Source: Candidatus Kuenenia stuttgartensis (GTDB taxonomy: Bacteria > Planctomycetota > GCA-002687715 > CAIWVZ01). Taken from it: DNA of 64,000 bases. The stretch spans positions 124,001 to 188,000 of the forward strand of contig CAMARR010000001.1 of NCBI GenBank assembly GCA_945860915.1. The letters run 5' to 3'. Shown here one piece after another: positions 5,342 to 21,387 of this stretch (its first letter is position 1; every line of letters starts with the position of its first letter). The translations under genes were made by a program, and so were the position numbers. The notes under the pieces were generated by a model that did no database searches, was not told the origin of the DNA, and worked only from the letters and a program-made list of their open reading frames with translations.

Positions 5342-6967
5342 ATGTTCTTGAACCGACTCACTAGACTCATTCTTCTCAGTTCGCTCATTCCGGCTTCGAG
5401 TTGCATGACTCCGGATGAAGCGATCGCTACGAGCGACGCTCACGCAGCGGACATAGTCGCCGAAAAGCAAAAGGGCTTATTCGGTGAGTCACGGCCCTTT
5501 GACGTCAAGCGTCCGGAGAGTCGAGTTCATCCATCTCGTTTGGATCCATCTACGGGGCTTGTTTCTGGCGCCGAAGTATTCCCACTTTCAATTCGCTCAG
5601 TCCTAGATCTTGCTGCCCGAAACTCACGTGAGTTTCAGACGGAGCGCGAGCGCCTTTGGCGCTCGGCTTTGGCGCTCGCCTCGGAACAAGAGGATTTCAC
5701 CAGTCATCCATTCGCTCGTTTTGGAACCGACACCACCGATTCGCCTACGGGAGCTTCAACTCAAGGTGATACTCAGATCGGTGTGTCGCAACTTCTGAAG
5801 CGTGGCGGGTCGCTTCTCCTCACGGCGGGCGGGAGCTTTCTCCGCTTCGCTCAGGGTGGAGGGGGCTCTTCAGGGACGTTTCTTGGATTGTCGCTCTCTC
5901 TGCCGCTGCTTCGCGGTGGAGGTGAGGATGTTGCCCTCGAGAATCTTCGGCAGGCCGATCGTGATGCGATGTACGCGCTTCGAGACTTCGAACGCTTTAA
6001 GCAGCGATTCGCCGTTGATGTCGAAATCCGGTTCTTGCGACTTTTGTCATCATCAAATCAGGTGGGCAATGAGGAGCGGAATCTTGAGCGTCTTCGAATG
6101 ACCCGGGAACGCAACGAGGCACTGGCGGAAGCTCAGCGCATGACTGTGATTCAGGTCGACCAGGCACGGCAGACTGAGCTTGATGGACAGAGTCGATTGC
6201 TGCTTGCTCGGAACAGGCTGCAAACGTCTCTGGATGACTTTAAGGAGATCCTAGGGCTGCCGGTGGACCTAGTGGTTGCGATCGACCCGAGGGAACTGGC
6301 CACCCTGGAAGCGCAGATGGCACGTTCGATCCCTGTTGATGAATCGGGGGCCATGCGACAGGGACTGCGCATTCGCCTAGACCTCCAAAATGTGCGCGAT
6401 GATCTGACCGACACGATTCGCAAGATCAAAGTCGCGGAAAACGCTCTCGAACCGGATTTGACTCTTGGCCTTTCGGGCAATGTGCCATCCGCACCGGGTT
6501 CGAATTTCCGACCGAGATTCGATGGCGCGACGTATCGCGGCAGTGTAGATGTGGACTTGGGGCTTTATCGAAACGTGGAGGCGTTCAGGTTGAAGGTGGC
6601 GCATCTGAACCGAGAGTCGGCACTGCGGGCAATTGAGGCCTTTGAAGACGCGGTAAAGTCCGATATCCGATTGTCTCTTCGCAATCTTGAGCAAGCGCGT
6701 ACGAGTTATGCCATTCAGAAGAACGCGGTTGCGGTTGCAGAGCGACGAGTCGAATCCGTCAATGAGTTCATTCTGCGCGGCGACGAGAAGACGCGCGATC
6801 TTCTCGAAGCCCAGTCCTCGTTGGTTCGCGCCGAGAACTCGCTTTCTGATGCGCTTGTGGATTACCGATCTGCTTTCCTTTCCTTCTACCGGGACACAGG
6901 AGCGCTTGTCGTTCGTCCCGAAGGACTCGATCATGAGACCAGTGATGAACTCCTCCTTGCGCCTTGA
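5342..6967 (+). CDS. TolC-family outer-membrane efflux lipoprotein
   Basis: Outer-membrane channel of a tripartite exporter. The signal peptide ends in PASSC, so it is probably lipid-anchored. The body shows the two outer-membrane-efflux repeats: long amphipathic alpha-hairpin helices (from RSVLDLAARNSREFQTERE, and again around the NVRDDLTDTIRKIKVAE region) flanking beta segments such as FLGLSLSLPLLRGGG. Length of 541 residues is typical. The last 35 nt overlap the adaptor gene, which is followed by ATPase and permease genes, making a complete export operon. The 105-nt gap upstream holds an interrupted inverted repeat at 5298-5320 and no gene. Confidence 0.87.
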   Translation: MFLNRLTRLILLSSLIPASSCMTPDEAIATSDAHAADIVAEKQKGLFGESRPFDVKRPESRVHPSRLDPSTGLVSGAEVFPLSIRSVLDLAARNSREFQTERERLWRSALALASEQEDFTSHPFARFGTDTTDSPTGASTQGDTQIGVSQLLKRGGSLLLTAGGSFLRFAQGGGGSSGTFLGLSLSLPLLRGGGEDVALENLRQADRDAMYALRDFERFKQRFAVDVEIRFLRLLSSSNQVGNEERNLERLRMTRERNEALAEAQRMTVIQVDQARQTELDGQSRLLLARNRLQTSLDDFKEILGLPVDLVVAIDPRELATLEAQMARSIPVDESGAMRQGLRIRLDLQNVRDDLTDTIRKIKVAENALEPDLTLGLSGNVPSAPGSNFRPRFDGATYRGSVDVDLGLYRNVEAFRLKVAHLNRESALRAIEAFEDAVKSDIRLSLRNLEQARTSYAIQKNAVAVAERRVESVNEFILRGDEKTRDLLEAQSSLVRAENSLSDALVDYRSAFLSFYRDTGALVVRPEGLDHETSDELLLAP

Positions 6968-8603
6968 TCGGTACCTGCTCCTAAGCCTGCTGCTCGTGGC
7001 TGGCTCATGCGGGGACGACGAATCTGACACGGCGATGTCATCGATTCCGGTTAAGGCCGTGGCCAAAGGCCCGATGCGCGTCACCGTGACCGCGGGCGGT
7101 GCTCTAGCTTCGGCGCGTCCGGTCCGCGTCGTCAATGAGATGGAAGGCAAGGCCACGATTTTGTATCTCGTCCCAGAAGGGACGTTAGTCAACAAGTCTG
7201 ACGTCATCGTGCGACTTGACTCCTCGTCGCTTCGCGATTCACTTAATCGCCAAGAGGTCGAGCTCGAGTCAGCTCGCACAAAGGTCAAGACCGCGAGCGA
7301 GAAACACGAGATTCAGCTCAACAAGAATGAGTCCGAAGTGAAGAAGTCCGAGGTTGACTCGGAGCTCGCGAAGGCCGATTTCACGGTCTACATGGAAGGC
7401 ACTTACAAGGCCGAGAAGGGGAAGCAAGAAGCGGCGCTCCTCCTTTCGCAAGAGGAGCTGAAGCGCGCCCTTGACAAAGTCCAGTGGAGCCAGCGTCTCG
7501 CAGACAAGAAGTTCATCACAAAGACGGAATTGGAAGCGGATCAACTCAAGGCTCAGAAGTCGCAGATTGACGTCGAACTTGCAAAAAATGCCATTCGAGT
7601 TTTGGATAAGTTTGAATATCCAAGGCAGGAGTTGAAACTATCTCTTCAACGCGACGAGTCCGTCAAGGAGTTGGAGCGTGTTCGCCGCAAGACGGCCTCT
7701 GAGACTGCACAGACGATGGCCGAGCGCGAGACAGCTAAGAAGACGCTGAAGCTCGAAGAGGAACGCTATGCTCGAACGAAGTCCAATCTAGAGAAGAGTG
7801 TCATCAGGGCGCCTTCGGCTGGAATCGTGGTCTACGCACGGCAGGATCGCGGTCGCATGGGCTCCTCGGAGCCGATTGCCGAGGGCAAGACGGTCAACGA
7901 GCGCGAAGAGATCCTTCAGATTCCTGACAATCGACGCATGAACGTCGATATGGATGTGCACGAGTCGCAGGTGAAGAAAGTTCGGCCAGGGCAAGCGGTG
8001 CGCGTCAAACTCGATGCAATGCCTGGTAAGGAATTCACCGGAGTCGTTGCTTCGGTTGCAACGGTTCCATCGACATCGAACTCGTGGATGAACCCGGACC
8101 TGAAGCTTTATCCGACCAAGGTTGAGATCAAGGAAGAACTCGAAGATCTACGCCCGGGAATGAACGCCCAGTGCGAGATCTTTGCGGCCGACTTGGGCGA
8201 CGTGCTGCAGGTACCAATGCAGGCTGTGCATTCAGCGGGTGGCAAGACGTTCGCCTATGTGCAAGAGGCTGGGAAGGCTGCGCTGCGCGAGGTCAAGATC
8301 GGCGCGAACAACGATCGAAGTGTTGAAGTCAAAGAGGGTCTTAAGGAAGGCGAGATGGTGTATCTCGCGGTTCCGCCTGAAGCGCCAGCGTTGCCGGAGG
8401 CAGAGGAGCGCTCGGCGCCGCCTGTTCCAATGGATGCCCCTCCGGTTCCAACCGACGCGACTCCAGGGTCTGGTGACGGACCTCCGATGCGTCGCCCGGG
8501 GCCAGGCGGAGCACGCCGTGGAATGCGTGGCGAGGGCGGCAAGCCGACTCAGGAAGCGCCGAATGGTGACGGATCGACGCCTGCGCCGGAACGCAAGCCC
8601 TGA
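6933..8603 (+). CDS. periplasmic adaptor (membrane fusion protein), MacA/HlyD type
   Basis: Links the inner-membrane ABC pump to the TolC-like channel. A lipoprotein signal (LLLVAGSC) is followed by a lipoyl/barrel-sandwich half (ILYLVPEGTLVNKSDVIVRLD). A long charged coiled-coil spans about residues 95-295, the second lipoyl half is SVIRAPSAGIVVYARQ, and a beta-barrel ends near residue 460. The C-terminal ~75 residues are Pro/Gly-rich and probably disordered, which is unusual for the family. ATG 6933 overlaps the TolC gene by 35 nt; ATG 6945 is an equally plausible start. The stop overlaps the next start (TGATG). Confidence 0.87.
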   Translation: MRPVMNSSLRLDRYLLLSLLLVAGSCGDDESDTAMSSIPVKAVAKGPMRVTVTAGGALASARPVRVVNEMEGKATILYLVPEGTLVNKSDVIVRLDSSSLRDSLNRQEVELESARTKVKTASEKHEIQLNKNESEVKKSEVDSELAKADFTVYMEGTYKAEKGKQEAALLLSQEELKRALDKVQWSQRLADKKFITKTELEADQLKAQKSQIDVELAKNAIRVLDKFEYPRQELKLSLQRDESVKELERVRRKTASETAQTMAERETAKKTLKLEEERYARTKSNLEKSVIRAPSAGIVVYARQDRGRMGSSEPIAEGKTVNEREEILQIPDNRRMNVDMDVHESQVKKVRPGQAVRVKLDAMPGKEFTGVVASVATVPSTSNSWMNPDLKLYPTKVEIKEELEDLRPGMNAQCEIFAADLGDVLQVPMQAVHSAGGKTFAYVQEAGKAALREVKIGANNDRSVEVKEGLKEGEMVYLAVPPEAPALPEAEERSAPPVPMDAPPVPTDATPGSGDGPPMRRPGPGGARRGMRGEGGKPTQEAPNGDGSTPAPERKP

Positions 8604-9313
8604 TGCCTACTGATACATCGACTGGCACCCCGGTGGTACGAATCGTCGGGGTCACCAAGGTCTATTCCATGGGCGAGGAGACGGTCAACGCCCTTGCCGG
8701 CGTCGACTTGGAGATCGAGGAGGGCGACTTCGTTGCGATCATGGGGCCCTCAGGATCCGGCAAGTCGACTCTATTGAACGTCCTCGGCTGCTTGGATCGT
8801 CCGACGAGCGGTTCCTATTTTCTAGGTGGTGTCGATGTGGCGCAGATGGATGACAATTCCATTTCCGCAATTCGCAGCCGCCGAATTGGGTTCATTTTTC
8901 AGTCGTTCAATCTGATTCCGTCGCACTCGGTCTTGGAGAATATCGAAGTCCCGATGTTCTATGCCGGAACGCCACCTGAATCAGCGCGAAAACGGGCTCA
9001 AGAATTGGCGTCATTGGTTCAGCTTGGGAATCGCACAGGCCACCGTCCGACGCAACTCTCGGGTGGGCAGCAGCAGCGAGTCGCGATCGCTCGCGCATTA
9101 GCTAACGACCCGATGATCCTCCTGTGTGACGAGCCGACCGGAAATCTCGACTCGGTGACGGGCGTCGAAATCATGAAATTCCTCACGAAACTCAATGAGG
9201 AAGGGCGAACGGTGATCATGGTTACGCACGAGGACGATATTTCTGCGTGGGCGAAGCGAGTCATTCGATTCCGCGACGGCAAGATTTACGAGGACGTGCG
9301 GAGGAAGTCGTAA
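8603..9313 (+). CDS. ABC transporter ATP-binding protein, MacB/LolD type
   Basis: Cytoplasmic ATPase powering the exporter. Walker A is GPSGSGKST (residues 48-56), the signature is LSGGQQQRVAIARAL, Walker B is ILLCDEPTGNLDS, and the switch His lies in VMVTHEDD. The length (236 residues) and the sequence around IMGPSGSGKSTLLNVLGCLDRP are typical of ATPases serving FtsX-fold permeases. Start overlaps the adaptor stop, and the stop overlaps the permease start (TAATG), giving tight translational coupling. Confidence 0.93.
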   Translation: MPTDTSTGTPVVRIVGVTKVYSMGEETVNALAGVDLEIEEGDFVAIMGPSGSGKSTLLNVLGCLDRPTSGSYFLGGVDVAQMDDNSISAIRSRRIGFIFQSFNLIPSHSVLENIEVPMFYAGTPPESARKRAQELASLVQLGNRTGHRPTQLSGGQQQRVAIARALANDPMILLCDEPTGNLDSVTGVEIMKFLTKLNEEGRTVIMVTHEDDISAWAKRVIRFRDGKIYEDVRRKS

Positions 9314-10581
9314 TGCGAGCAACACGCATCATCAAGCTTGGCCTCACCAGCCTCGTGACACATCCGTTGCGTTCATCGCTCGCGGTACTAGGGATCGTGC
9401 TAGGAGTTGCGTCAGTCATCGCCATGCTTGCGATTGGTGCCGGAGCGTCGGAGGAAGCGCAGGCTCAGATTCGCTCTCTAGGTTCGACAACGATCCGGCT
9501 CTATTCGAAGAAGCCGCCCGAGGACGGAGGCGGCTCCACAAATCGTTCGCGCATGGTCATTTATGGGATCAAGTATGACGACCTTCGTCGCATCGATGAG
9601 ACCGTGCCCGATGTTGCCGCGATCGTCCCGGTCCGCGAAGTCTCGACGACTCTGTGGTGGGGAGAAAAAAGCGCCGAAAGCTATGCGCTCGGCACGATGG
9701 TCTCGTGGCTTTCTGCGGCGCGGCAATCGGTCGCACGTGGGCGCTGGCTGAATGAAGTCGATATGGTGAATCAACTCCCGTCAGCCGTGATTGGCGCGGG
9801 ATTGGCAAAGAAGTTGTTCCAACACAATGACGCGCTTGGAACCGAGATTCGTATTGGAACAAAGCCCTATACGGTCGTCGGCATCCTCGCCGGAGGTGGT
9901 GCTGGAGGTGGAAAGATCGGCGGTGCGAACGCACGCATGGCTGACGACGCAGTATTCGTTCCGATGACAACAGTCAAGGAGCGTTGGGGCGACCGGAACG
10001 TGAAGCGCTCAGCTGGTTCGACTGACATCGAGCTCGTTGAAGTCCACGAGGCAATTTTGGAAGTTCCCGCGCCGGAGTTGGTCATTCCGACCGCCGAAGC
10101 AGTGAAGGCTCTTCTCGCGAGGTTCCATAAGAAGGAAGACTACACCGTCGTCGTTCCACTCGCGTTGCTTGAAGAGTCGAAGCGTACAAAGCGCATCTTT
10201 AACATCGTCTTAGGGTCAATTGCGGGGATTAGCCTCGTCGTCGGTGGCATCGGGATCATGAACATTATGCTCGCGACCGTGACAGAGCGTACCCGTGAGA
10301 TTGGTATTCGACGCGCGTTGGGCGCACGACGTCGCGACATTACATTGCAGTTTCTAGCCGAGTCACTTACGCTCTGTCTCGTCGGTGGTATTGCAGGAGT
10401 TGGGCTGGGACTGTTGGTTCCAGTTTATGTCGAATGGAAGTTCGATCTTCCGACCCTCGTTCACCCAGACTCAGTTGCCTTGGCGTTCGGGATTTCAGCA
10501 GCGACTGGCCTTCTGTTTGGCATCTACCCGGCAGCGCGCGCAGCGAAGCTGGATCCGATCGAGGCGCTCCGTCACGAATAG
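9313..10581 (+). CDS. ABC transporter permease, MacB/FtsX type
   Basis: Inner-membrane half of the exporter. TM1 is near residues 20-42, followed by a MacB-type periplasmic core domain (about 45-290) with a Gly-rich loop (LAGGGAGGGKIGG). Three C-terminal TM segments form the FtsX domain (IVLGSIAGISLVVGGIGIMNIML, then LTLCLVGGIAGVGLGLLVP, then FGISAATGLLFGIYPA). The coupling-helix region TERTREIGIRRALGARRRDI is the family hallmark. The ATPase is encoded separately, unlike E. coli MacB. The substrate cannot be told from sequence; efflux, lipoprotein or peptide export are all possible. Ends 7 nt from the convergent FG-GAP gene. Confidence 0.9.
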   Translation: MRATRIIKLGLTSLVTHPLRSSLAVLGIVLGVASVIAMLAIGAGASEEAQAQIRSLGSTTIRLYSKKPPEDGGGSTNRSRMVIYGIKYDDLRRIDETVPDVAAIVPVREVSTTLWWGEKSAESYALGTMVSWLSAARQSVARGRWLNEVDMVNQLPSAVIGAGLAKKLFQHNDALGTEIRIGTKPYTVVGILAGGGAGGGKIGGANARMADDAVFVPMTTVKERWGDRNVKRSAGSTDIELVEVHEAILEVPAPELVIPTAEAVKALLARFHKKEDYTVVVPLALLEESKRTKRIFNIVLGSIAGISLVVGGIGIMNIMLATVTERTREIGIRRALGARRRDITLQFLAESLTLCLVGGIAGVGLGLLVPVYVEWKFDLPTLVHPDSVALAFGISAATGLLFGIYPAARAAKLDPIEALRHE

Positions 10582-10588
10582 GCCCGGT

Positions 10589-12376
10589 CTAGCGCAGGAT
10601 CCCGGTTTGTTCGTCGATGACGAGACGTCCCGGCTTGAACGGTCCCGTGTACGTCACGCTGTGCGCGGGCTTGGCCGGCCACCGGACGATGATCTCCTTT
10701 GCGGGGTCTCCTTTACCCAGTCCGAAAATCAGCTCATAGGTTGAGGCGGAAAGGTAGGAGGAACCCGAATGGACGGTTCGAATTTGGTTTGACCCGTCGA
10801 AGTTGACCAGTCTTACCGTCGCACCGAGCGCATCCGTCCCTGATCGGGTGCCTCGCAATCGGACGGCTAGCGAGCGATTCGGTGGCGTGTCGCAACGCAG
10901 GAGCGTGGGTGCCCCTCCGTTGGACGTCATCAGCACGTCTAGGTCCCCGTCGCGGTCAAGATCCGACACCGCGAGTCCTCGGCCGACGAGAGGAACCAAA
11001 AGGTCAGCTCCGGTATTACGAGAGTTGTCTGCAAACCTCCGTCCGCCGAGATTCCTGAGCCATTGTGCAGGTTGCGCGAAGGTAAGGCCTGAATGCACAT
11101 CTCCGATGGTCGGCTCAATATGCCCGTTGGCCAAAATGAGGTCTTCTAATCCATCGAGGTCCAAGTCGGCGAAAACAACTCCGAATGTCAACGGCGCCTG
11201 CGTCAGTGCCGCCACTCCTGTGACGTCCGCTCGGTTGATCATGACGCCCGCATTGCGATCAGATTCACCTTTTGGCAGGGCAAGTTCAAACAGAGATAGC
11301 GGCTCGTTCGAGAAGTTGCCGATTGCGATGGTCGGAAGCAACTGCTCATCCAAACAACCCACATCTATGCCCATTCCGGCGCGTGCTCGGCCGTCAGGTC
11401 CATAGGCGACGTTCCACTCGAGTGCAACATCGCGAAAATTTCCACTTCCGTCGTTCAGATAGAGGAAGTTCGCCCACTTGTCGTTAGCGACAAAGAAGTC
11501 AGGCGCGCCGTCCGCGTTGATATCGATGACACAAACGCCGAGTGCCTTAGATTCATCGTTCCGGATCCCGGCGCGGATGGTGATATCTTCAAATCGCCCC
11601 TTTCCTAGATTGCGCCAGAGGCGGCACGATTCTCCCTGGTACTGATCAGGAATCGCATAGGACTTTGTCTTGCCGTCAATCGTCGCCCAGACGTCGGTCG
11701 CTGCCGACCATCGGACGTAGTGACAAACAAACAGATCGGGGAGTCCATCTAAGTCAATGTCAGCGAACGCCGCTGAAGTGGGGAATGACGGTGTGTCCGG
11801 ACCCTTCGCATCTTCGAGCGGTTTACCATGCAATCCGCTTGCGTCGGTTTGATCCCGGAACTTGAATCCGCCGAGGTTCTCGAAGTATCGATATCCGCCA
11901 AGGCCCGTCACAAAAACGTCTGTGTCCTGGTCTCCATCGACGTCTGCAACTGCGACTCCGAGTGCAAAGACCGGGAGGTTGATGCCGCAACTACTCGTGA
12001 CATCAACGAAGCGACCGTTACCGTCGTTGCGATAGCAGTGTGTTGTCGACGTCGCCGGCCGATCTAAGCGCGAAGCACCGAGCAGCAGGAGGTCGTCGTC
12101 TCCATCACCGTCTGCATCGAACCAAGCGACTCCGCTTCCCATGGTCTCTGGGAGCCACTTCTTCCCTGTCGTCCCGTTGTCATGGATGAAGGTAATTCCC
12201 GCATCACGAGTGATGTTCTTTAGACTCACGGGGTGGTCAGGGCGTTTGGTGCTGTCCGCGGGGCGGGAGGGTGCGGTCGCATAGGGGGCATCCTTGCGCG
12301 TCGGAATTTGGGGCGGCTCCTCGTCTCCACACGAGACGAAGAGCACTGGCAGGACAAGCGCCGCGAGGAGTCTCAC
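10589..12376 (-). CDS. FG-GAP/VCBS-repeat lipoprotein with ASPIC/UnbV domain (CRTAC1-like)
   Basis: Extracytoplasmic beta-propeller-type protein. GTG at 12376 overlaps the stop of the upstream cytochrome gene as GTGA and gives a clean lipoprotein signal with lipobox Cys at residue 16 (VLPVLFVSC). Repeats carry calcium-binding Asp motifs such as FDADGDGDDD and DLDRDGDLDVL. The C-terminal ~90 residues match the ASPIC/UnbV domain (SLAVRLRGTRSGTDALGA...). A longer frame begins at 12460 but would bury the signal peptide inside an antisense-free extension. Family members often accompany TPR or multihaem proteins; role unknown, possibly surface adhesion or an electron-transfer partner. Confidence 0.87.
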   Translation of the reverse strand: MRLLAALVLPVLFVSCGDEEPPQIPTRKDAPYATAPSRPADSTKRPDHPVSLKNITRDAGITFIHDNGTTGKKWLPETMGSGVAWFDADGDGDDDLLLLGASRLDRPATSTTHCYRNDGNGRFVDVTSSCGINLPVFALGVAVADVDGDQDTDVFVTGLGGYRYFENLGGFKFRDQTDASGLHGKPLEDAKGPDTPSFPTSAAFADIDLDGLPDLFVCHYVRWSAATDVWATIDGKTKSYAIPDQYQGESCRLWRNLGKGRFEDITIRAGIRNDESKALGVCVIDINADGAPDFFVANDKWANFLYLNDGSGNFRDVALEWNVAYGPDGRARAGMGIDVGCLDEQLLPTIAIGNFSNEPLSLFELALPKGESDRNAGVMINRADVTGVAALTQAPLTFGVVFADLDLDGLEDLILANGHIEPTIGDVHSGLTFAQPAQWLRNLGGRRFADNSRNTGADLLVPLVGRGLAVSDLDRDGDLDVLMTSNGGAPTLLRCDTPPNRSLAVRLRGTRSGTDALGATVRLVNFDGSNQIRTVHSGSSYLSASTYELIFGLGKGDPAKEIIVRWPAKPAHSVTYTGPFKPGRLVIDEQTGILR

Positions 12377-15141
12377 TTCGGAGCACCGAGGGGGTGGACG
12401 TGCAACGGCTGGCTCTCGTGGTTGACATCGGGGCGCTCTCGACGGAACGAGTTTGTCCACTTCTGCGCCGATTCGTCAATCTGATACTTAAGATATGCCT
12501 TCTCGGCCTCGTCTGCTGCGTCGCGCTGGCCCATCGCACGGTAGGTGAGCATTCTGTTGTAGTGAGCCATCCGATCTTCCGGATCGATGGAAAGCACAAC
12601 GAGAAAACTCTTGAGGGCCAGCTCGAAGTCTCCGAGTCGGTAGTAAATCTGTCCGATTCGCTGATGGATCGTCCGATCTCGTGGGAAGGACTCTTGTGCG
12701 AATCGCAAGGCAGAAAGAGCCTCAGGAAGTTGACTCGCCCTTTCGCGGGCTACTCCGAACCAATATGCGGTCAACGGGCTGGCGGGCGAGCGGGACTCGG
12801 CCACCTTCAATTGCTCGATGGCGTCCTGTGGCGCGCCGTCTTCGAGGAGTGTCCGGGCGAGGTTTCGGGGACCATCGGCAAGGTCAGGACGCGCGTCTGC
12901 GACAATGCCGAAGGCATGCTTCGCCCCACGGGTATCGCCCTGCAGCATGAGACCGATTCCAAGGTCATTCCATCTCATCCAATCGCGGCGCAAGTGCTCG
13001 CTTTGAATCGAGCTCGGTTCGGTCGGTCGTGTGCTGATGTCGAAAGTCGTCTCGGCGGAAGCGACATCGGTGATCGGTAGTACAGGAACAGGTCGACCTG
13101 GCATCGTCTCGCGCCATGCGTACTCGGTGTAACTTGGCGAGAACTTCCTCCATCTCACTGTTGCGCGGACTTTGATTTTTGAGGGTGCGTCGGCTGGAAT
13201 GGACCATGAATAACGTGCCACATCTGCCGTGCCCGGGCCGATCAACTTCTGGTGGGCGATTGCCCTGAATCGATGAGGTTCCCTGCGAGCTATTTCTTTG
13301 CCTTGTTCATCGACAAAGACAGTTCGATAGCGGTGTGCATCTTCCGAGATTCCAAGGCTCACTGGGTCGACTGCACCGCTTTCTGCAAGTACGCGTCCTG
13401 AGATCGCCTCGGTGATCACGAAGTGAATCCACGCCTCATTGGAGTCCGTCGTGCCACCTGGGAATGTATGGCCGACTCCACTGTTTCGCACCACGACTTG
13501 GATCTCGACCGAGTCTCCCGACCGAAGCGCAATTGGACGGAGGTCGGGCGCAAGGACTGTGTTTCCCGAGCCATCCTTCACGGCGGCGATGTCCACGCGC
13601 AACGAGCCGCGAAGGAAGCGCTCGGCTTCCTCAAGTGCGGTTTTGTCTCCACGGACATGAGGAAGGGCCGTATTTGGGCCTGGAAACCGGTGCGATCTCA
13701 CCTTGCCATCTTTTGCCGCGAGATCACCTCGGACCGCATCGACGCGGGGCATGTGGCAGTCTTGGCAATTCTTCGATTCGTCCGGAAGATAGAAGGTGCG
13801 TGCGTTGTTCCGTGAGACTCCCGAGTCCTGATGGGCGTCGTACTCGTTCTGACCACGAATCCATCGATAACTGTTGACAGGAGTATCGAGCGATACCTTG
13901 TGGCATGTGCCGCAGTACTCGCTGGTCGAGAACACTGGCTTCTTCATTTCTCGGCGGTGCACATCAGGTTTGGATTTGATGAGTGAATCGTGCAGGAAGG
14001 CCAGAGGACCCGATTTTGCTTCGGGAAATAGGTACGGATCCGGCGAGGCGTCGGCAATTCGATAGTTTCCATTGCCTCCGACACCGTGCACCTCGTCCAT
14101 TGCGTGGCAAGCAATGCACGTGAGTCCGGCCTGAGCTTCGGCCGTCATTGGATCAATCTCTCGAGTCATGTTCCCGGGCATCATGATCGCGGGGTCGTGA
14201 CATCCGGAACACCATTGCGAGCGGACTTTGCCATCTGGCTCTTTGCGAAGTGACTCGATGGCAACACGGTAAAAGGGATTATTGAATGATGCGAAGCGAT
14301 GAGCTGACCCAGCCCATTGCTCAACGATGTCTTGATGGCACCGTGCACATGACTCAGATCCAATTCTGGATTCAACGGCAAAGCCGTGTTTAGCCAAGTC
14401 ACGCTTCAGCAGCTCGGGCTCTGGTAGATCACCATTGGTGAGAATGCGGTTGGAGAGAAAGCGGCCCGTCTGTGATCGTGTTGCGGCTGGAAAGAAAACG
14501 CTGCTTTGCGGCGCTCCCGACACGCCTTCGGGCGGGAACAGATCTCGGTAGACGTCGACGTCGCTCGAACTGGGTGGAATGAACGATGCACGCTCTGGCG
14601 GAGGCTCGGGGCGAGTGAGGTCGTCAGCAAGTACTAAACATGTCACGAGTCCACCCACAGCGATCAATCCGTTTGTGATTGACCGTGGGGTGATTCTGTT
14701 GCGACCGAGCAGTCGATGCGCCAGAAACAGGGCGGGTCCAACGAGCGCTAGCACCTGGTGGCTTACAAACGCCCACTGGTTGTTGGCGCTGTTGGCTTTA
14801 GTGAGGATGAAAGTGCCTGTTACGGCCAGAAGGATGCTCGTGAGCACGAGCACAAGACCAGTGGCGACCGCCTTGCGAGCCCCCATGCGCCATAGCGACC
14901 TGCCGTGCAGAACGCTGAATGCAGCCAAGGGGCCAAGGAGAACGAAGCCCGCGAGCACGTGCGCCACCAATTGACCTTGAAAGAAGGTCGGCAGAATCGA
15001 TTGAGTTGGCGCGCGAAGGTGAAGATAGGCAGCGTTTCCAAGCAAGAACCACGACAGAATCGCCACCATGCGTAGAAGACGTCTCTGATTGGACGTCAGC
15101 AGCGACTTGGTCGAAGGCGATGAAGGGGTCTCAAATGGCAT
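12373..15141 (-). CDS. membrane-anchored pentahaem cytochrome c with C-terminal TPR repeats
   Basis: A 922-residue protein in four parts. (1) Five hydrophobic segments at about 22-40, 55-78, 89-113, 122-143 and 150-172; His61/His79 lie in the second and His128/His142 in the fourth, and the 13-residue spacing of the latter matches haem-b pairs of quinol-oxidising cytochromes. (2) Five CxxCH motifs at 265-269, 311-315, 342-346, 410-414 and 459-463, in a cytochrome c554-like arrangement. (3) A beta region (about 500-700) with NSGVGHTFPGGTTDSNE. (4) TPR repeats from about 710 to the end. It likely moves electrons across or outward from the inner membrane. Its stop overlaps the FG-GAP lipoprotein start. 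Electron donor and acceptor are unknown. Confidence 0.85.
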   Translation of the reverse strand: MPFETPSSPSTKSLLTSNQRRLLRMVAILSWFLLGNAAYLHLRAPTQSILPTFFQGQLVAHVLAGFVLLGPLAAFSVLHGRSLWRMGARKAVATGLVLVLTSILLAVTGTFILTKANSANNQWAFVSHQVLALVGPALFLAHRLLGRNRITPRSITNGLIAVGGLVTCLVLADDLTRPEPPPERASFIPPSSSDVDVYRDLFPPEGVSGAPQSSVFFPAATRSQTGRFLSNRILTNGDLPEPELLKRDLAKHGFAVESRIGSESCARCHQDIVEQWAGSAHRFASFNNPFYRVAIESLRKEPDGKVRSQWCSGCHDPAIMMPGNMTREIDPMTAEAQAGLTCIACHAMDEVHGVGGNGNYRIADASPDPYLFPEAKSGPLAFLHDSLIKSKPDVHRREMKKPVFSTSEYCGTCHKVSLDTPVNSYRWIRGQNEYDAHQDSGVSRNNARTFYLPDESKNCQDCHMPRVDAVRGDLAAKDGKVRSHRFPGPNTALPHVRGDKTALEEAERFLRGSLRVDIAAVKDGSGNTVLAPDLRPIALRSGDSVEIQVVVRNSGVGHTFPGGTTDSNEAWIHFVITEAISGRVLAESGAVDPVSLGISEDAHRYRTVFVDEQGKEIARREPHRFRAIAHQKLIGPGTADVARYSWSIPADAPSKIKVRATVRWRKFSPSYTEYAWRETMPGRPVPVLPITDVASAETTFDISTRPTEPSSIQSEHLRRDWMRWNDLGIGLMLQGDTRGAKHAFGIVADARPDLADGPRNLARTLLEDGAPQDAIEQLKVAESRSPASPLTAYWFGVARERASQLPEALSALRFAQESFPRDRTIHQRIGQIYYRLGDFELALKSFLVVLSIDPEDRMAHYNRMLTYRAMGQRDAADEAEKAYLKYQIDESAQKWTNSFRRERPDVNHESQPLHVHPLGAPK

Positions 15142-15194: not shown

Positions 15195-17537
15195 TCAAAA
15201 GAAGATCGTCAGATTGTCGCCGATAACCGAAATCTCGCCAGCACCGCCCACGCCCGCGAGCGGGATCGTGCCGATTGCATTGATGATTTGAACGACCCCG
15301 GTCGAAAGAGCCGTAGCCAAAGCCGTCGCCGAGGCCGACGCATCGCGCCCTGGGAAGTTGGTTTCGATCGAGAGAGTCGAGAGGATCGTCCCTGGGGTCA
15401 CGCTCAAGGTCGATGTCGCGGGGTTGATGTTGAAGAGGACACCGACATTAGCGGTCAGGCTTGCCGACAACACAGGACGCTCGATCCCGTCAACAACTGC
15501 GGCAAAGGTCACGATGGCATTAGCCAGAACGAACGTGCCGGTAGCGGGATTGCCAGCCGCCAAGGTGAAAGCCGGAGCCGTGGTTTGCGTGAATCGAACG
15601 GCGACGATCGTGTTGGGATCGAATGCTTCAAATCCCGAGGAAGGGAAGGCAGCGTCGAGCGCGCCCGCGTTGAGGGCTATGGTTCCAGCTCCGGTTCCGA
15701 TCGACCCGTTCAGGTTGACATCCAAAACGCCTAGATTGGTAAACGTCGCAAAGATCGCGTTGAGCGTGTCGTCGTTGAGGGCGAGCCCTCCCGTGTAGGG
15801 ATTGCCGAGGTTTGGAGTCGTTGGCGGGAAGACCGGAATAGTCCCCGGCGTGGTCCGGAACTGCGCCACGGTCGGTGTGACAACCGCACCTGCAGATGGT
15901 TGAAAATTGAGTCCGAGGCCAACAGTCAAACCGAGCGCGTCGTAATAGAGCGAGTGGAGGGGAAATCCGAGAGTCAACGGGATACCCGAGGCGCCGAGGT
16001 CAAACGTGAACGTATTGAATTGAGTCAATAGTGGATTGATCAGCGGCGGGATAAGTTGAAGCGTGGTCGACAGAGCAACTTCGATTGCCGTCTTCAGAAG
16101 AGTCTGAACTGTCGCGAACTGGGTCGAGGTGCCAAGTGCGCCGGTTGCAGTGAATGCAAAGCCGTTCAACGTGGTCGTGGCACCCTGGATCTGGGCTTGA
16201 GCTCCCGTTGCGTTTGGCACGAGCACCAAATTGCCCGAAATGACAGCGGATGTCGACGTGATCGTGGCCGTCGATGTGTAAGGCGCGTTGAAGATCTTGC
16301 CCGTAACCAAGGTCGTAATGACAACGTTAGTGAAGGTGAGCGAAACGCCGATTGCGCCGTTCGGTCCTGGATAGAAATCTAGGTCGACCACTGGATCGAA
16401 GGTGAACGTTTGTGGGTCCGCTGTTGCTGAGAAGAGAATCGTGTTGAACGGACCCGGAATGCTCAACAGTGGGATAGCCGGAATGAGCCCGATGATGGAA
16501 GAGAAGTCGATGGTGCCCAGAAATTGTTCAACCAATGGCTCAAGCGGATCCAAGGAAATCCCATTGACTCGGATACCGGCGGCCGGAAGAGCTGGATTGG
16601 TGATGGGCTGTCCGGTGCCGATAAGTCGGCCCGAGGTGCGCGACATGCGTTGTCCCGATGGGCCGACAATCGACATCGTTACTGGCGTTGCAAGGCTGCC
16701 AGCGGGGGAAATGATGGGCGAACCGGTGAAGGCGCCGCCCCCCGATGGAACGATGCCCGCATTCTGCAGTGCGAAGGTTGCGCCGACGGGGCCAGTTGCA
16801 GTCCCCGAGGGTGTGAAGGAGCCAGATCCAAACGACCCATTGACGGGGGTCGTGAAGTCGATCGAGTAGGCGTCGATGGTGGTCGAATCGGATCCAGGTC
16901 CTACGCCGCCCGTGACAAGTCCAATCGAGTAGGAACCCGCGATGTCGGGTGTCAGTACGGGGTAGGGTGAATTCGCGTGCTGAAGCGTGGCGGTCGAGCC
17001 TGCGGGAGCCGAGATAATCGTCCAATTAAAGGTCAGACCTGCAGGGATAGATCCGTTGCCATCAACGTTGTTTGACCCATCCAGAGTCACCGCACGCCCG
17101 ACCAGGGTGCCTCCGTCGGGCCCGGCGTCGGTTGCAAACGCAGCGAACATCACCGAGTTTGGGTTGGAGATGCGCGCTCCGAGCGGCTCCGCTGGATCCA
17201 TGAGGAAACCAAGCGTGTAGACGGACAGCCCATCAAGCGCCGGGAGATTCGGCACGAATGCTGGAATCGTGATCCCGCCTTGCGGCATCGGGAGGAAATT
17301 CAAGATCTCGACAAGCCCGGTGACACCGAGAGGTACCGACACGGCGCCGATTTGAGTCGGTCCTGCGTCAAGTGCGAAGAACCAAAGAGCCGGAAGCCCC
17401 GCCTCACCGTCTTCCTTGAAGATAGTCTCTGCCCCGAGATATCCGACGACCGGAGTCGTCGAGTTGTTGATCGTGACGACGGGAGCCTGCGCAAACAGGA
17501 TCGACGTGAGAAACAGAGGCAGAAGCGCTCGAGACAT
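15195..17537 (-). CDS. large secreted protein, possible PKD-like and TULIP-like domains
   Basis: A 780-residue exported protein: MSRALLPLFLTSILFAQA is a signal peptide, and AGGAG upstream of ATG 17537 supports this start. The N-terminal ~130 residues resemble the sandwich domain seen at the C-terminus of the carboxypeptidase. Residues ~130-230 look like an Ig/PKD fold (AVTLDGSNNVDGNGSIPAGLTFNWTIISAP). Residues ~330-545 form a long amphipathic beta region ending in helix-prone IPPLINPLLTQFN. This pattern recalls TULIP/BPI lipid-binding domains, though I infer that from pattern only. It has almost no Cys and is very rich in Thr, Ala and Gly. I do not recognise the family. It is 54 nt from the cytochrome gene on the same strand. 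Confidence 0.75.
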   Translation of the reverse strand: MSRALLPLFLTSILFAQAPVVTINNSTTPVVGYLGAETIFKEDGEAGLPALWFFALDAGPTQIGAVSVPLGVTGLVEILNFLPMPQGGITIPAFVPNLPALDGLSVYTLGFLMDPAEPLGARISNPNSVMFAAFATDAGPDGGTLVGRAVTLDGSNNVDGNGSIPAGLTFNWTIISAPAGSTATLQHANSPYPVLTPDIAGSYSIGLVTGGVGPGSDSTTIDAYSIDFTTPVNGSFGSGSFTPSGTATGPVGATFALQNAGIVPSGGGAFTGSPIISPAGSLATPVTMSIVGPSGQRMSRTSGRLIGTGQPITNPALPAAGIRVNGISLDPLEPLVEQFLGTIDFSSIIGLIPAIPLLSIPGPFNTILFSATADPQTFTFDPVVDLDFYPGPNGAIGVSLTFTNVVITTLVTGKIFNAPYTSTATITSTSAVISGNLVLVPNATGAQAQIQGATTTLNGFAFTATGALGTSTQFATVQTLLKTAIEVALSTTLQLIPPLINPLLTQFNTFTFDLGASGIPLTLGFPLHSLYYDALGLTVGLGLNFQPSAGAVVTPTVAQFRTTPGTIPVFPPTTPNLGNPYTGGLALNDDTLNAIFATFTNLGVLDVNLNGSIGTGAGTIALNAGALDAAFPSSGFEAFDPNTIVAVRFTQTTAPAFTLAAGNPATGTFVLANAIVTFAAVVDGIERPVLSASLTANVGVLFNINPATSTLSVTPGTILSTLSIETNFPGRDASASATALATALSTGVVQIINAIGTIPLAGVGGAGEISVIGDNLTIFF

Positions 17538-17665
17538 GAACTTCACTCCTAGTCGGGATGAAAGCACCGGATAGATGGTTAATTCTAATCGATGAAAGCG
17601 TGCCAATCAGCAGATATTTTGGCGCAGGATAAAAAAAGGGAGCGGGGCGGTACGATGACTCCATC

Positions 17666-18631: not shown

Positions 18632-19267
18632 ATGGCCATTCCGACTCCTCAGCAATCACGAGTCCTCGACTTCATCCGGCATTTCTTGAGGGATCGGGGA
18701 TTTCCCCCGACTCACGCTGAGATTGCCCTCGGGTTGGGTTTTCGGTCGCCCAATGCGGCCGCTCAGCACGTGCGGCTTCTGGCGAAGAAGGGGCTTCTCG
18801 AAGTCTCTGAAGGGCGCTCCCGGGGAATTCGATTCCCTGAATCGGGAAGTTCAGCAGAGCCGGTGCGCGGACTGCCTGTGATCGGACGCGTCGCTGCAGG
18901 CGCTCCCATCTTGGCCGAGCCTCATGTCGAGTCACACGTCGACGTGGATCCGAGTTTGTTTCATCCTCGCGCCGACTACCTCTTGAGAGTTCGCGGCGAT
19001 TCCATGATCGACGCGGGAATTTTCTCTGGCGACCTCGTCGCTGTTCATCGTACGCCGCAGGTCGAGCCTGGATCCATGGCTGTTGTTCGTCTTGATGACG
19101 AAGTCACCGTGAAGCACTGGCGGCCGAGAGCCGACGGAACGATTGCCCTTGAGCCACGCAATGATGCCTATCAGCCCATCATCGTCGATCCATCGATGAC
19201 TTCTATTTCAATTGAGGGGGCGGTGGTGGGGCTCTTGCGCCTTGGCCTCGCAACGACGCTGCGCTGA
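18632..19267 (+). CDS. lexA: LexA repressor, S24 autoprotease
   Basis: SOS repressor that self-cleaves when RecA filaments form. Residues 1-65 are the winged helix-turn-helix (TPQQSRVLDFIRHFLRDRG; recognition region around SPNAAAQHVRLL). The cleavage site is Ala89-Gly90 in RVAAGAP. The catalytic dyad is Ser124 (RGDSMIDAGI) and Lys161 (DEVTVKHW). GGAGG sits at good spacing before ATG 18632. The stop lies one base before the imuA start, so the repressor heads the mutagenesis operon it presumably controls. A lexA gene heading an imuA-imuB-dnaE2 unit is a known arrangement in several phyla. Confidence 0.95.
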   Translation: MAIPTPQQSRVLDFIRHFLRDRGFPPTHAEIALGLGFRSPNAAAQHVRLLAKKGLLEVSEGRSRGIRFPESGSSAEPVRGLPVIGRVAAGAPILAEPHVESHVDVDPSLFHPRADYLLRVRGDSMIDAGIFSGDLVAVHRTPQVEPGSMAVVRLDDEVTVKHWRPRADGTIALEPRNDAYQPIIVDPSMTSISIEGAVVGLLRLGLATTLR

Positions 19268-19268
19268 A

Positions 19269-19997
19269 ATGACCCATCCAGCCGATGCCGCCACTCTTGC
19301 TCGCCTTCGGGCTGCGATTGCATTCCCTTCGGGGAGTGGCGAACAGCGTTGCCCCACGGGATTTCCAGATCTCGACGAGGCATTAGGCGGAGGTCTTCCG
19401 CGAGATTCATTGACTGAAATCTACACGGCTGCAGCAGGTTCAGGCGTACTCGAAGCCTTGCTCCCTTCATTGGCTCGAGGAAGCAGTCGTTGGCTTACAT
19501 GGATTCATCCTTCCTCGACACCGTATCCACCGGCATTGGCACAGGCTGGATTCGATCTCACTCGTTGGATGCTGGTGCGACCTGCATCAGCGGACGATCA
19601 CCTGTGGTCTATTGAACAATGTTTGCGTTCTCGTGGATGCGATGCCGTTGTTTCTCACCTAACGGACGTGAACGACGGCCAAATGCGTCGTTTCTCGTTG
19701 GCTGCCGAAGAAGGCTCATGTCTGGGTCTTTTGCTTCGTCCGGCGGCCTTGATGTCCCGTCCGTCACCTGCGTCCGTCCGACTTTTTGCAGAGCCTGCGC
19801 CGTCACCTCATCCGGCTCGTCGCCGCATGACTCTGACTGTAGTGCGTTGCCGAGGCCAATCCCAAAACCCTACTTTGACTTTGGAGTGGAACCGTGACCC
19901 GTTGGATCGCCCTTCGTTTTCCCTGGCTTCCGATCGAACGTCTGCAATCCGAATTCCCATCGAAAGGCCCAAGCCCTCTCGTTCTCTACGCGCTTGA
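19269..19997 (+). CDS. imuA: ImuA, RecA-like translesion-synthesis factor
   Basis: Accessory protein of the ImuB-DnaE2 mutasome. The N-terminal region CPTGFPDLDEALGGGLPRDSLTEIY is the family motif preceding a RecA-like core. The expected Walker A loop appears as TAAAGSGVLEALL rather than a canonical GxxxxGKT, as in many ImuA proteins. ATG 19269 follows the lexA stop by one base. The 3' end overlaps imuB by 104 nt, so the last ~34 residues (rich in Arg, Ser and Pro) share DNA with the imuB start; this tail looks less conserved than the rest. Confidence 0.87.
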   Translation: MTHPADAATLARLRAAIAFPSGSGEQRCPTGFPDLDEALGGGLPRDSLTEIYTAAAGSGVLEALLPSLARGSSRWLTWIHPSSTPYPPALAQAGFDLTRWMLVRPASADDHLWSIEQCLRSRGCDAVVSHLTDVNDGQMRRFSLAAEEGSCLGLLLRPAALMSRPSPASVRLFAEPAPSPHPARRRMTLTVVRCRGQSQNPTLTLEWNRDPLDRPSFSLASDRTSAIRIPIERPKPSRSLRA

Positions 19998-21387
19998 TGC
20001 GTCGCGAGAGACGGTGGTTGCCGTTTCCGAACCTGCTTGGCGAACCGGGATTCGCGTGGGGATGAGCGTTACTGCGGCTCGAGCTCTCTGTTCCAAGCTA
20101 CAGATTCTTCCTCACGATGTTGCGGCAGATCGCCGACTGTGGGTGCGTTTCGCCAATCTCTGTCAGCGGGTGACACCCGACATTGTTCTCTCTGCGCCTC
20201 ATGTTCTTCTCCTTGAAGTTGGACGTACGGCCGAGCGTTTCGGAGGAGAGGCCGCTCTCGTTGAACGATTGATTCGGGGCTTTCAGCGACTTGGACATCG
20301 AGCTCGCGTTGGCGTGGCATCCACACCAGCGGCCGCTCGCGCCTTGGCGAAGGCCGGGGGAGAGCAGCCTCGTTTGGCACCGGAAGGGCAGTTGCTGGAG
20401 GTTCTCTCGCCGCTGCCGCACTCCGTATTGGATCTTCCCACTCCCATATTGAAAATTTGTGCGGGACTTGGGCTCCGATCCGTCGGTGATGTAGTGAGTT
20501 TGCCGCGTGCTGATATCGCTACCCGATTTGGGGAGCGTGCCCTCAACGAGATTGATCGCCTCCTTGGGAGATCGGAGGAGCCATTGCGGCGCTTCGTTCC
20601 AGAAATGACCTTCCACGAGCGCGTGGATTTTTCGGCACCCACGGAGTCCATCAGTTCGATTCTCTTCGCCGCCAAGCGACTCATGGATTTGGCAGAAGCA
20701 GAGCTCCTCGGGCGGATGTCGGCTGTCGAATCCTTGACGGTTTCTCTCGAGCCTGCCGCGAAGGGGCCACCATGGTCATTCGAATTGCGTCCCGGCGAGC
20801 CAACCTGCTCATGCCGCCGTTGGCTGAGTCTTTTGCAGCACCGTCTGGAAAAACGAGCTCTCTCGGCACCCGTCGATGCCGTGTCAGTGTCGTTTCAACA
20901 TACGGTTCCGATTCGTATGGATGAGGGGTCTTTGTTTGACGACCCCCGTGCGGGAGTTTTTGCGGAGCAGGCTTCACGCCTGAGGGACCGTCTTGCTTCT
21001 CGAATGGGAGAAGAGCGCGTCTTGGGAGTTGAACTCACAGAAGATCATCGGCCTGAGCGCGCCTTCGTGTTGACGCCGAAGACAATGAATCCACGCTGTT
21101 CGGTCGCACGGCCGACGCATAGCCCGCGTCCGATGATTATCGAAGGGCGTCCCGAGCGGCTTGTAGTCAGAAGCGACGACTCCGGCAGGCCTATCTGTAT
21201 CGAGCAGGGGAGAGATCGCGGACCTATCCGGTGGGCTCGAGGACCGGAGCGCATCGAGGCAGGTTGGTGGGATGGCGGAGACATACGTAGGTCTTATTTC
21301 GAAATCGAAACCTCGATAGGAGCACGCTGGTGGGTCTATCGAGACCTGTCATCTGGCGATTGGCATCGCCACGGCTTGTTTAGTTGA
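19894..21387 (+). CDS. imuB: ImuB, Y-family polymerase-like mutasome hub
   Basis: Catalytically inactive Y-family homologue that links DnaE2 and the sliding clamp. It opens with TRWIALRFPWLPIERL, where active Y-family enzymes have an acidic metal-binding motif, so polymerase activity is not expected. The finger/palm region and a helix-hairpin-helix-like segment (LPTPILKICAGLGLRSVGDVVSLP) follow, then a little-finger-like domain. EGSLF near residue 345 may be the clamp-binding peptide, with Glu where canonical motifs have Gln. The start is GTG at 19894 with GGAG about 8 nt upstream, inside imuA. Length (497 residues) is typical. Confidence 0.9.
   Translation: MTRWIALRFPWLPIERLQSEFPSKGPSPLVLYALDASRETVVAVSEPAWRTGIRVGMSVTAARALCSKLQILPHDVAADRRLWVRFANLCQRVTPDIVLSAPHVLLLEVGRTAERFGGEAALVERLIRGFQRLGHRARVGVASTPAAARALAKAGGEQPRLAPEGQLLEVLSPLPHSVLDLPTPILKICAGLGLRSVGDVVSLPRADIATRFGERALNEIDRLLGRSEEPLRRFVPEMTFHERVDFSAPTESISSILFAAKRLMDLAEAELLGRMSAVESLTVSLEPAAKGPPWSFELRPGEPTCSCRRWLSLLQHRLEKRALSAPVDAVSVSFQHTVPIRMDEGSLFDDPRAGVFAEQASRLRDRLASRMGEERVLGVELTEDHRPERAFVLTPKTMNPRCSVARPTHSPRPMIIEGRPERLVVRSDDSGRPICIEQGRDRGPIRWARGPERIEAGWWDGGDIRRSYFEIETSIGARWWVYRDLSSGDWHRHGLFS

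Follow-up and report, generated by a model that had tools for sequence, protein, structure and literature searches.

The closest known kind of protein to the one described here is the CbcL/MtrH/MtoC group of Geobacter and relatives, in which a membrane domain with two b haems and a periplasmic multihaem c domain share one polypeptide (PMC9129911, PMC6295460). CbcL, a fusion of two b haems with nine c haems, works as a quinone oxidoreductase; its c haems are N-terminal and its six helices, HydC/FdnI-like, are C-terminal, with three His reported as conserved in the family (PMC9129911, PMC6295460). We have analysed a protein of this general layout from Candidatus Kuenenia stuttgartensis, encoded in a stretch of 64,000 nucleotides (GenBank assembly GCA_945860915.1, contig CAMARR010000001.1, positions 124,001–188,000 of the forward strand; hereafter the window, with coordinates counted from its first base). 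A single 922-residue chain here joins a haem-b-type membrane domain to a pentahaem c domain, a β-sandwich and a tail of tetratricopeptide repeats (TPRs), and its gene is followed by one for an FG-GAP/UnbV protein. We favour as its probable function that of a cytoplasmic-membrane electron wire: a quinone-linked oxidoreductase facing the periplasm, with two b and five c haems. The initial annotation of this DNA knew of no described complex with this architecture, whereas the general kind is already represented by the two-haem-b, multihaem-c fusions above; a description of this particular family or architecture was not found in the partial library searched.

Domain layout of the 922-residue protein

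The features concerned are as follows.

12373..15141, minus strand: fusion protein gene, 922 aa, with a haem-b-type membrane domain, pentahaem c domain, β-sandwich and TPR tail
14626..15093, minus strand: membrane domain, residues 17–172, five helices, N-terminus predicted inside (from helices, invariance, topology and structural neighbours)
13660..14367, minus strand: pentahaem c domain, residues 259–494, with CxxCH at 265, 311, 342, 410 and 459 and invariant His 281, 395 and 484
13027..13602, minus strand: β-sandwich, residues 514–705, with an invariant GHxF motif at H558, a candidate haem ligand
12436..12981, minus strand: TPR array, residues 721–902 (from Pfam matches and predicted fold)
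10589..12376, minus strand: partner gene, FG-GAP repeats and UnbV_ASPIC (‘CRTAC1-like’) by Pfam, a probable lipoprotein

Five hydrophobic helices, five CxxCH motifs and a TPR tail had been read from the sequence at the outset, and every residue position given for them proved right. Pfam agrees: Cytochrome_C554 (residues 264–346), Cytochrome_C7 and several TPR families exceed their cut-offs, the first scoring 36.8 bits against a cut-off of 20.8 in the c554-family search that the initial annotation had proposed. TPR_16, TPR_2 and TPR_19 are all above cut-off, identifying the tail as a tandem TPR array. Structure models were built on ten sequences, with relatives from the genome searches left out of the prediction. 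The predicted fold of the tail resembles MamA and consensus TPRs (Foldseek of the full-length model); matches to the full-length model are to TPRs, and the haem region, modelled without haems, is poor (predicted local distance difference test (pLDDT) of about 30–50). The architecture is real and beyond chance. Full-length relatives turned up when public genomes were scanned, in Planctomycetota, Gemmatimonadota and Bacteroidota, and 64 homologues from these three phyla make up the family alignment used below. Domain order, c-haem sites, the invariance of the putative ligands and the gene pair are established at the level of sequence.

Putative haem ligands in the membrane and periplasmic domains

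AlphaFold2 predicts membrane helices at residues 17–42, 52–85, 89–114, 119–145 and 152–172 (mean pLDDT 86). The paired histidines first noticed, 61/79 and 128/142, do lie in hydrophobic stretches, H61 and H79 on helix 2 and H128 and H142 on helix 4, the latter two separated by the 13-residue gap originally reported. His is present in every sequence that covers the site (63 for H61 and for H79, 64 for H128 and for H142), and its spacing, 18 for 61/79 and 14 for 128/142, is kept in 63 of the 63 homologues holding both helices; three additional members each from Bacteroidota and Gemmatimonadota have the same pattern. Across columns 17–172 the commonest residue has a median share of 0.34 (about 34–39% per column), and only the four His with G65, G95 and G109 reach 0.95 or more. 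Because 18 residues make five helical turns and 14 make 3.9, each His pair falls on one helix face. Glycine is a common companion of buried haem, and two His pairs on two membrane helices, each on one face and with Gly nearby, constitute the arrangement of a di-haem cytochrome b. Helix directions suggest H61–H128 and H79–H142 as the natural pairing, with one ligand per helix at each level. Positive residues are found at the N-terminus and in loops 2–3 and 4–5 and are scarce in loops 1–2 and 3–4; this positive-inside pattern would place the N-terminus inside and the C-terminal c domain on the outer side, the one on which c haems are attached.

We searched the membrane model against the PDB (350,542 chains) with Foldseek. 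The first six matches were NOX5, b6f, NOX5, FdnI, NOX5 and STEAP1, all haem-b membrane proteins, with FdnI (1kqf_C) fourth at a non-significant E-value of 0.47; the transmembrane domain was thus not seen to match a non-haem family, the outcome that had been named as telling against the original claim. The search for b561 and DUF4405 domains, also proposed there, returned both among the sub-threshold Pfam matches of relatives (Ni_hydr_CYTB of the b561 type at best 9.7e-5, DUF4405 at 0.003), together with other weak matches; for the window protein, Ni_hydr_CYTB reached E 0.058, below cut-off. PF00033 was matched in Pfam by neither the window protein nor its relatives, and the membrane-domain profile found no match among PDB sequences. 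The domain is likely to bind haem b. The invariance of the putative ligands, the positive-inside topology and the structural neighbours give good support to a single chain that combines a two-haem-b membrane domain with five c haems and has its c domain outside.

The periplasmic part belongs to the c554 type of multihaem domains and carries five c haems. Its haem sites are all retained in the 64 homologues, as are H281, H395, H484 and H558, the first haem motif being CxxxCH rather than CxxCH in the TPR-free relatives inspected (L082–L101). A profile of residues 250–700 matches the Thermochromatium tepidum pentahaem cytochrome c552 (5ze8), which we take to be a five-haem c-type protein, with an E-value of 1.5e-7 over the first three haems only. 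H558 of the sandwich, within the invariant motif GHxF (GHTFP in the window protein), is a candidate haem ligand. Further distal-type His differ by subgroup: one has 352/603, another 481/620, and in the third none is conserved. The same genome also encodes, on other contigs, two stand-alone relatives with five CxxCH (L011 and L012) that have neither the membrane b domain nor TPRs; their haem sites come in the same order, and the last is followed by a GH motif. With such stand-alone pentahaem relatives in the genome, the fused protein looks like a soluble cytochrome of an already existing type linked to a b-type membrane domain.

Five c haems set against only four family-wide invariant distal-type His (281, 395, 484 and 558) would suit a membrane-fed enzyme in the periplasm, in which one five-coordinate c haem is the active site, the FG-GAP protein shapes or gates it and the b domain supplies or removes electrons. 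Nitrosomonas cytochrome c554 has one five-coordinate haem, and the near-invariant polar residues N357, Q431, N490 and R665, none of them ligands, could be read in the same direction. We nevertheless consider this reading doubtful: the ligands are assigned by alignment alone and in the window protein the fifth could be H352 or H603, it is common for multihaem electron carriers to have bis-His haems throughout, and the loci have no conserved substrate-specific gene neighbourhood.

Family distribution and the FG-GAP/UnbV partner

Matches at E ≤ 1e-30, with the TPR-free subgroup counted in, occur in 84 of 294 sampled Planctomycetota genomes. At E ≤ 1e-60, 17 of 297 Bacteroidota genomes were matched in a search started from a Bacteroidota carrier, and 17 of 150 Gemmatimonadota genomes in one started from a Gemmatimonadota carrier. 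A tree of the c domain differentiates three subgroups: g1, which includes the window protein (24 rows; Shimodaira–Hasegawa-like approximate likelihood ratio test (SH-aLRT) 96), the TPR-bearing g2 (19 rows), which no single branch sets apart, and g3 (21 rows, SH-aLRT 100), whose members are without TPRs and keep both haem domains. One change on this tree explains the presence and absence of TPRs. As g3 retains both haem domains, these form the constant core and the TPRs are optional.

The FG-GAP/UnbV gene lies directly downstream on the same strand in 53 of the 61 loci with room for it (of 64 loci, three end too early), a pairing that recurs across phyla. The initial annotation had overlooked this coupled gene. 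In the window its likely start, GTG at 12376..12374, overlaps the stop of the cytochrome gene (GTGA), and from this start the product has a signal sequence with a lipobox-like LFVSC. By eye, g1 partners mostly carry a lipoprotein-type signal and those of g2 an N-terminal membrane anchor; no haem motif occurs in the FG-GAP/UnbV partner. The idea that the protein could pass electrons outward by itself is doubtful, because of the FG-GAP/UnbV protein encoded next to it at most loci. The further suggestion that the TPRs dock a partner did not survive as a main idea for the FG-GAP protein: the TPR-free sister subgroup has this gene at 21 of 21 loci, and therefore the TPRs are not what pairs the two proteins.

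If the protein served in assembly or sensing and not in respiration, the TPRs and the FG-GAP protein would form a scaffold; TPR arrays usually are scaffolds, and this partner is without haem motifs. We think this very unlikely: a chain with five c haems and a probable two-haem membrane domain is expensive to make, all of these features are conserved, and the TPR-free subgroup retains everything else.

FG-GAP/CRTAC1 genes are found beside hydrazine-synthase-like multihaem genes as well, according to a 2025 report (PMC12758564), an observation that would favour the membrane-fed enzyme. Carried further, the two genes would encode a quinone-coupled periplasmic redox enzyme with an open catalytic c haem, an FG-GAP/UnbV propeller that presents or shields the substrate and a b domain that links it to the quinone pool; we hold this version improbable. 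Were it true, electron source, wire and active site would lie on one chain, and the abundant CRTAC1/UnbV proteins of Planctomycetota would for the first time have a defined function in biochemical terms.

A search for a larger conserved operon around the homologue loci found no further neighbour that is kept. Just upstream of the cytochrome gene in the window, on the same strand, an 803-aa protein (15195–17606, minus strand) has no Pfam or PHROGs match and was not found beside the cytochrome gene at other loci. On the plus strand, an HlyD-type adaptor, an ABC ATPase and a MacB/FtsX permease stand in a row at 6687–10581, forming a MacAB-like transporter set. LexA and then two open reading frames, the second resembling a Y-family polymerase (ImuB-like), occupy 18632–21387 (plus strand); LexA alone was confirmed by search, and the group is possibly a LexA–ImuA–ImuB mutagenesis cassette.

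Proposed electron path and relation to known systems

In the electron wire that we favour, helices 2 and 4 would hold two b haems, one on the periplasmic side (H61 and H128) and one on the cytoplasmic side (H79 and H142). Electrons would be exchanged with the quinone pool at the membrane domain and passed to the fused periplasmic domain of c552/c554 type, whose haem ligands may include H558 of the sandwich that follows. The membrane-anchored FG-GAP/UnbV protein of the two-gene unit would be the likely partner, as a subunit that binds substrate or docks an acceptor, although the roles given to it and to the TPRs are guesses. Quinone as the redox partner is a guess too. So is outward flow from quinol, a direction that the analogy with CbcL favours somewhat.

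Several observations weigh against this proposal. No Pfam family exceeds its cut-off over the membrane domain; the six leading Foldseek matches have E-values of 0.09 to 0.67, which are not significant, with root mean square deviations of about 7–13 Å for the leading matches; and across the 64 aligned homologues no polar or acidic residue is conserved that would mark a quinone site. Eight of the 61 loci are without an adjacent partner, five of them in one planctomycete family. Lastly, a further route between quinone and periplasm needs justifying in organisms of which all 16 tested have an oxidase and 15 a bc-type cytochrome b. The want of a family above cut-off and the weak structural E-values would also fit a haem-free membrane anchor, making the protein a tethered pentahaem cytochrome with TPRs. 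We give this little credence, for it offers no reason why four His and three Gly stay fixed at set spacing in 63–64 diverged proteins while the rest varies.

The respiratory background comes from sixteen carrier genomes screened for respiratory and assembly families. COX1 (haem-copper oxidase) and a cytochrome c assembly protein are present in all 16, the bc-type cytochrome b PF00033 in 15; in the window's genome PF00033 and COX1 are about 4 kb apart. NrfD, which occurs in alternative complex III among others, is found in 13 of 16 and was not found in the window's genome (87% complete). The counts for PF00033 and COX1 speak against a replacement of complex III, and since carriers hold an oxidase and mostly a bc-type cytochrome b, the fusion protein would be an extra branch rather than the sole link between quinone and cytochrome c. 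Flow could also run inward, the pentahaem domain oxidizing a periplasmic donor and the b domain reducing quinone, and the haem-copper oxidase of all the tested carriers could consume the resulting quinol; we regard this as possible but unlikely. The sequence fixes neither direction.

The family defines a conserved, testable module in parts of Planctomycetota, Gemmatimonadota and Bacteroidota, and links the FG-GAP/UnbV proteins, a widespread family, with one particular redox protein. A label such as ‘TPR protein’ or ‘multihaem cytochrome’ would conceal the redox part that lies in the membrane. On the electron-wire reading, carriers already equipped with an oxidase, and in nearly every case with a bc-type cytochrome b, would have in it one more link between the quinone pool and the periplasm.

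Among known systems, Planctomycetota hydrazine-synthase-like clusters adjoin CRTAC1-family genes, with c554 domains in one clade (PMC12758564, 2025), and likewise encode a multihaem protein beside an FG-GAP/CRTAC1 gene; their multihaem protein is a different one, with no b-type membrane domain in the accessible passages of that report. The c552 cytochrome 5ze8 resembles the window protein in its five c-type haems, whereas its 435-residue chain is too short for an added b-type membrane domain and TPRs. In NOX5, b6f, FdnI (1kqf), STEAP, b561 and DUF4405, membrane-helix His clamp haem b, mostly two on each of two helices or in a similar four-His set, although STEAP binds a single haem. These folds supply the best structural neighbours and sub-threshold matches, yet none reaches a significant sequence or structure E-value. 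The bc1 spacing is 14/14; here it is 18/14, and without PF00033 the domain does not belong with the bc1/b6f cytochromes b. CbcL itself has its nine-haem c domain at the N-terminus and its six-helix b domain at the C-terminus, and because these defining features of domain order, helix number and haem number are absent, we do not file the family there, a separation drawn from the published architecture of CbcL. The window protein instead begins with its membrane domain, which has five helices and four His spaced 18/14, followed by five c haems of c552/c554 type, a β-sandwich and TPRs, with an FG-GAP partner gene alongside.
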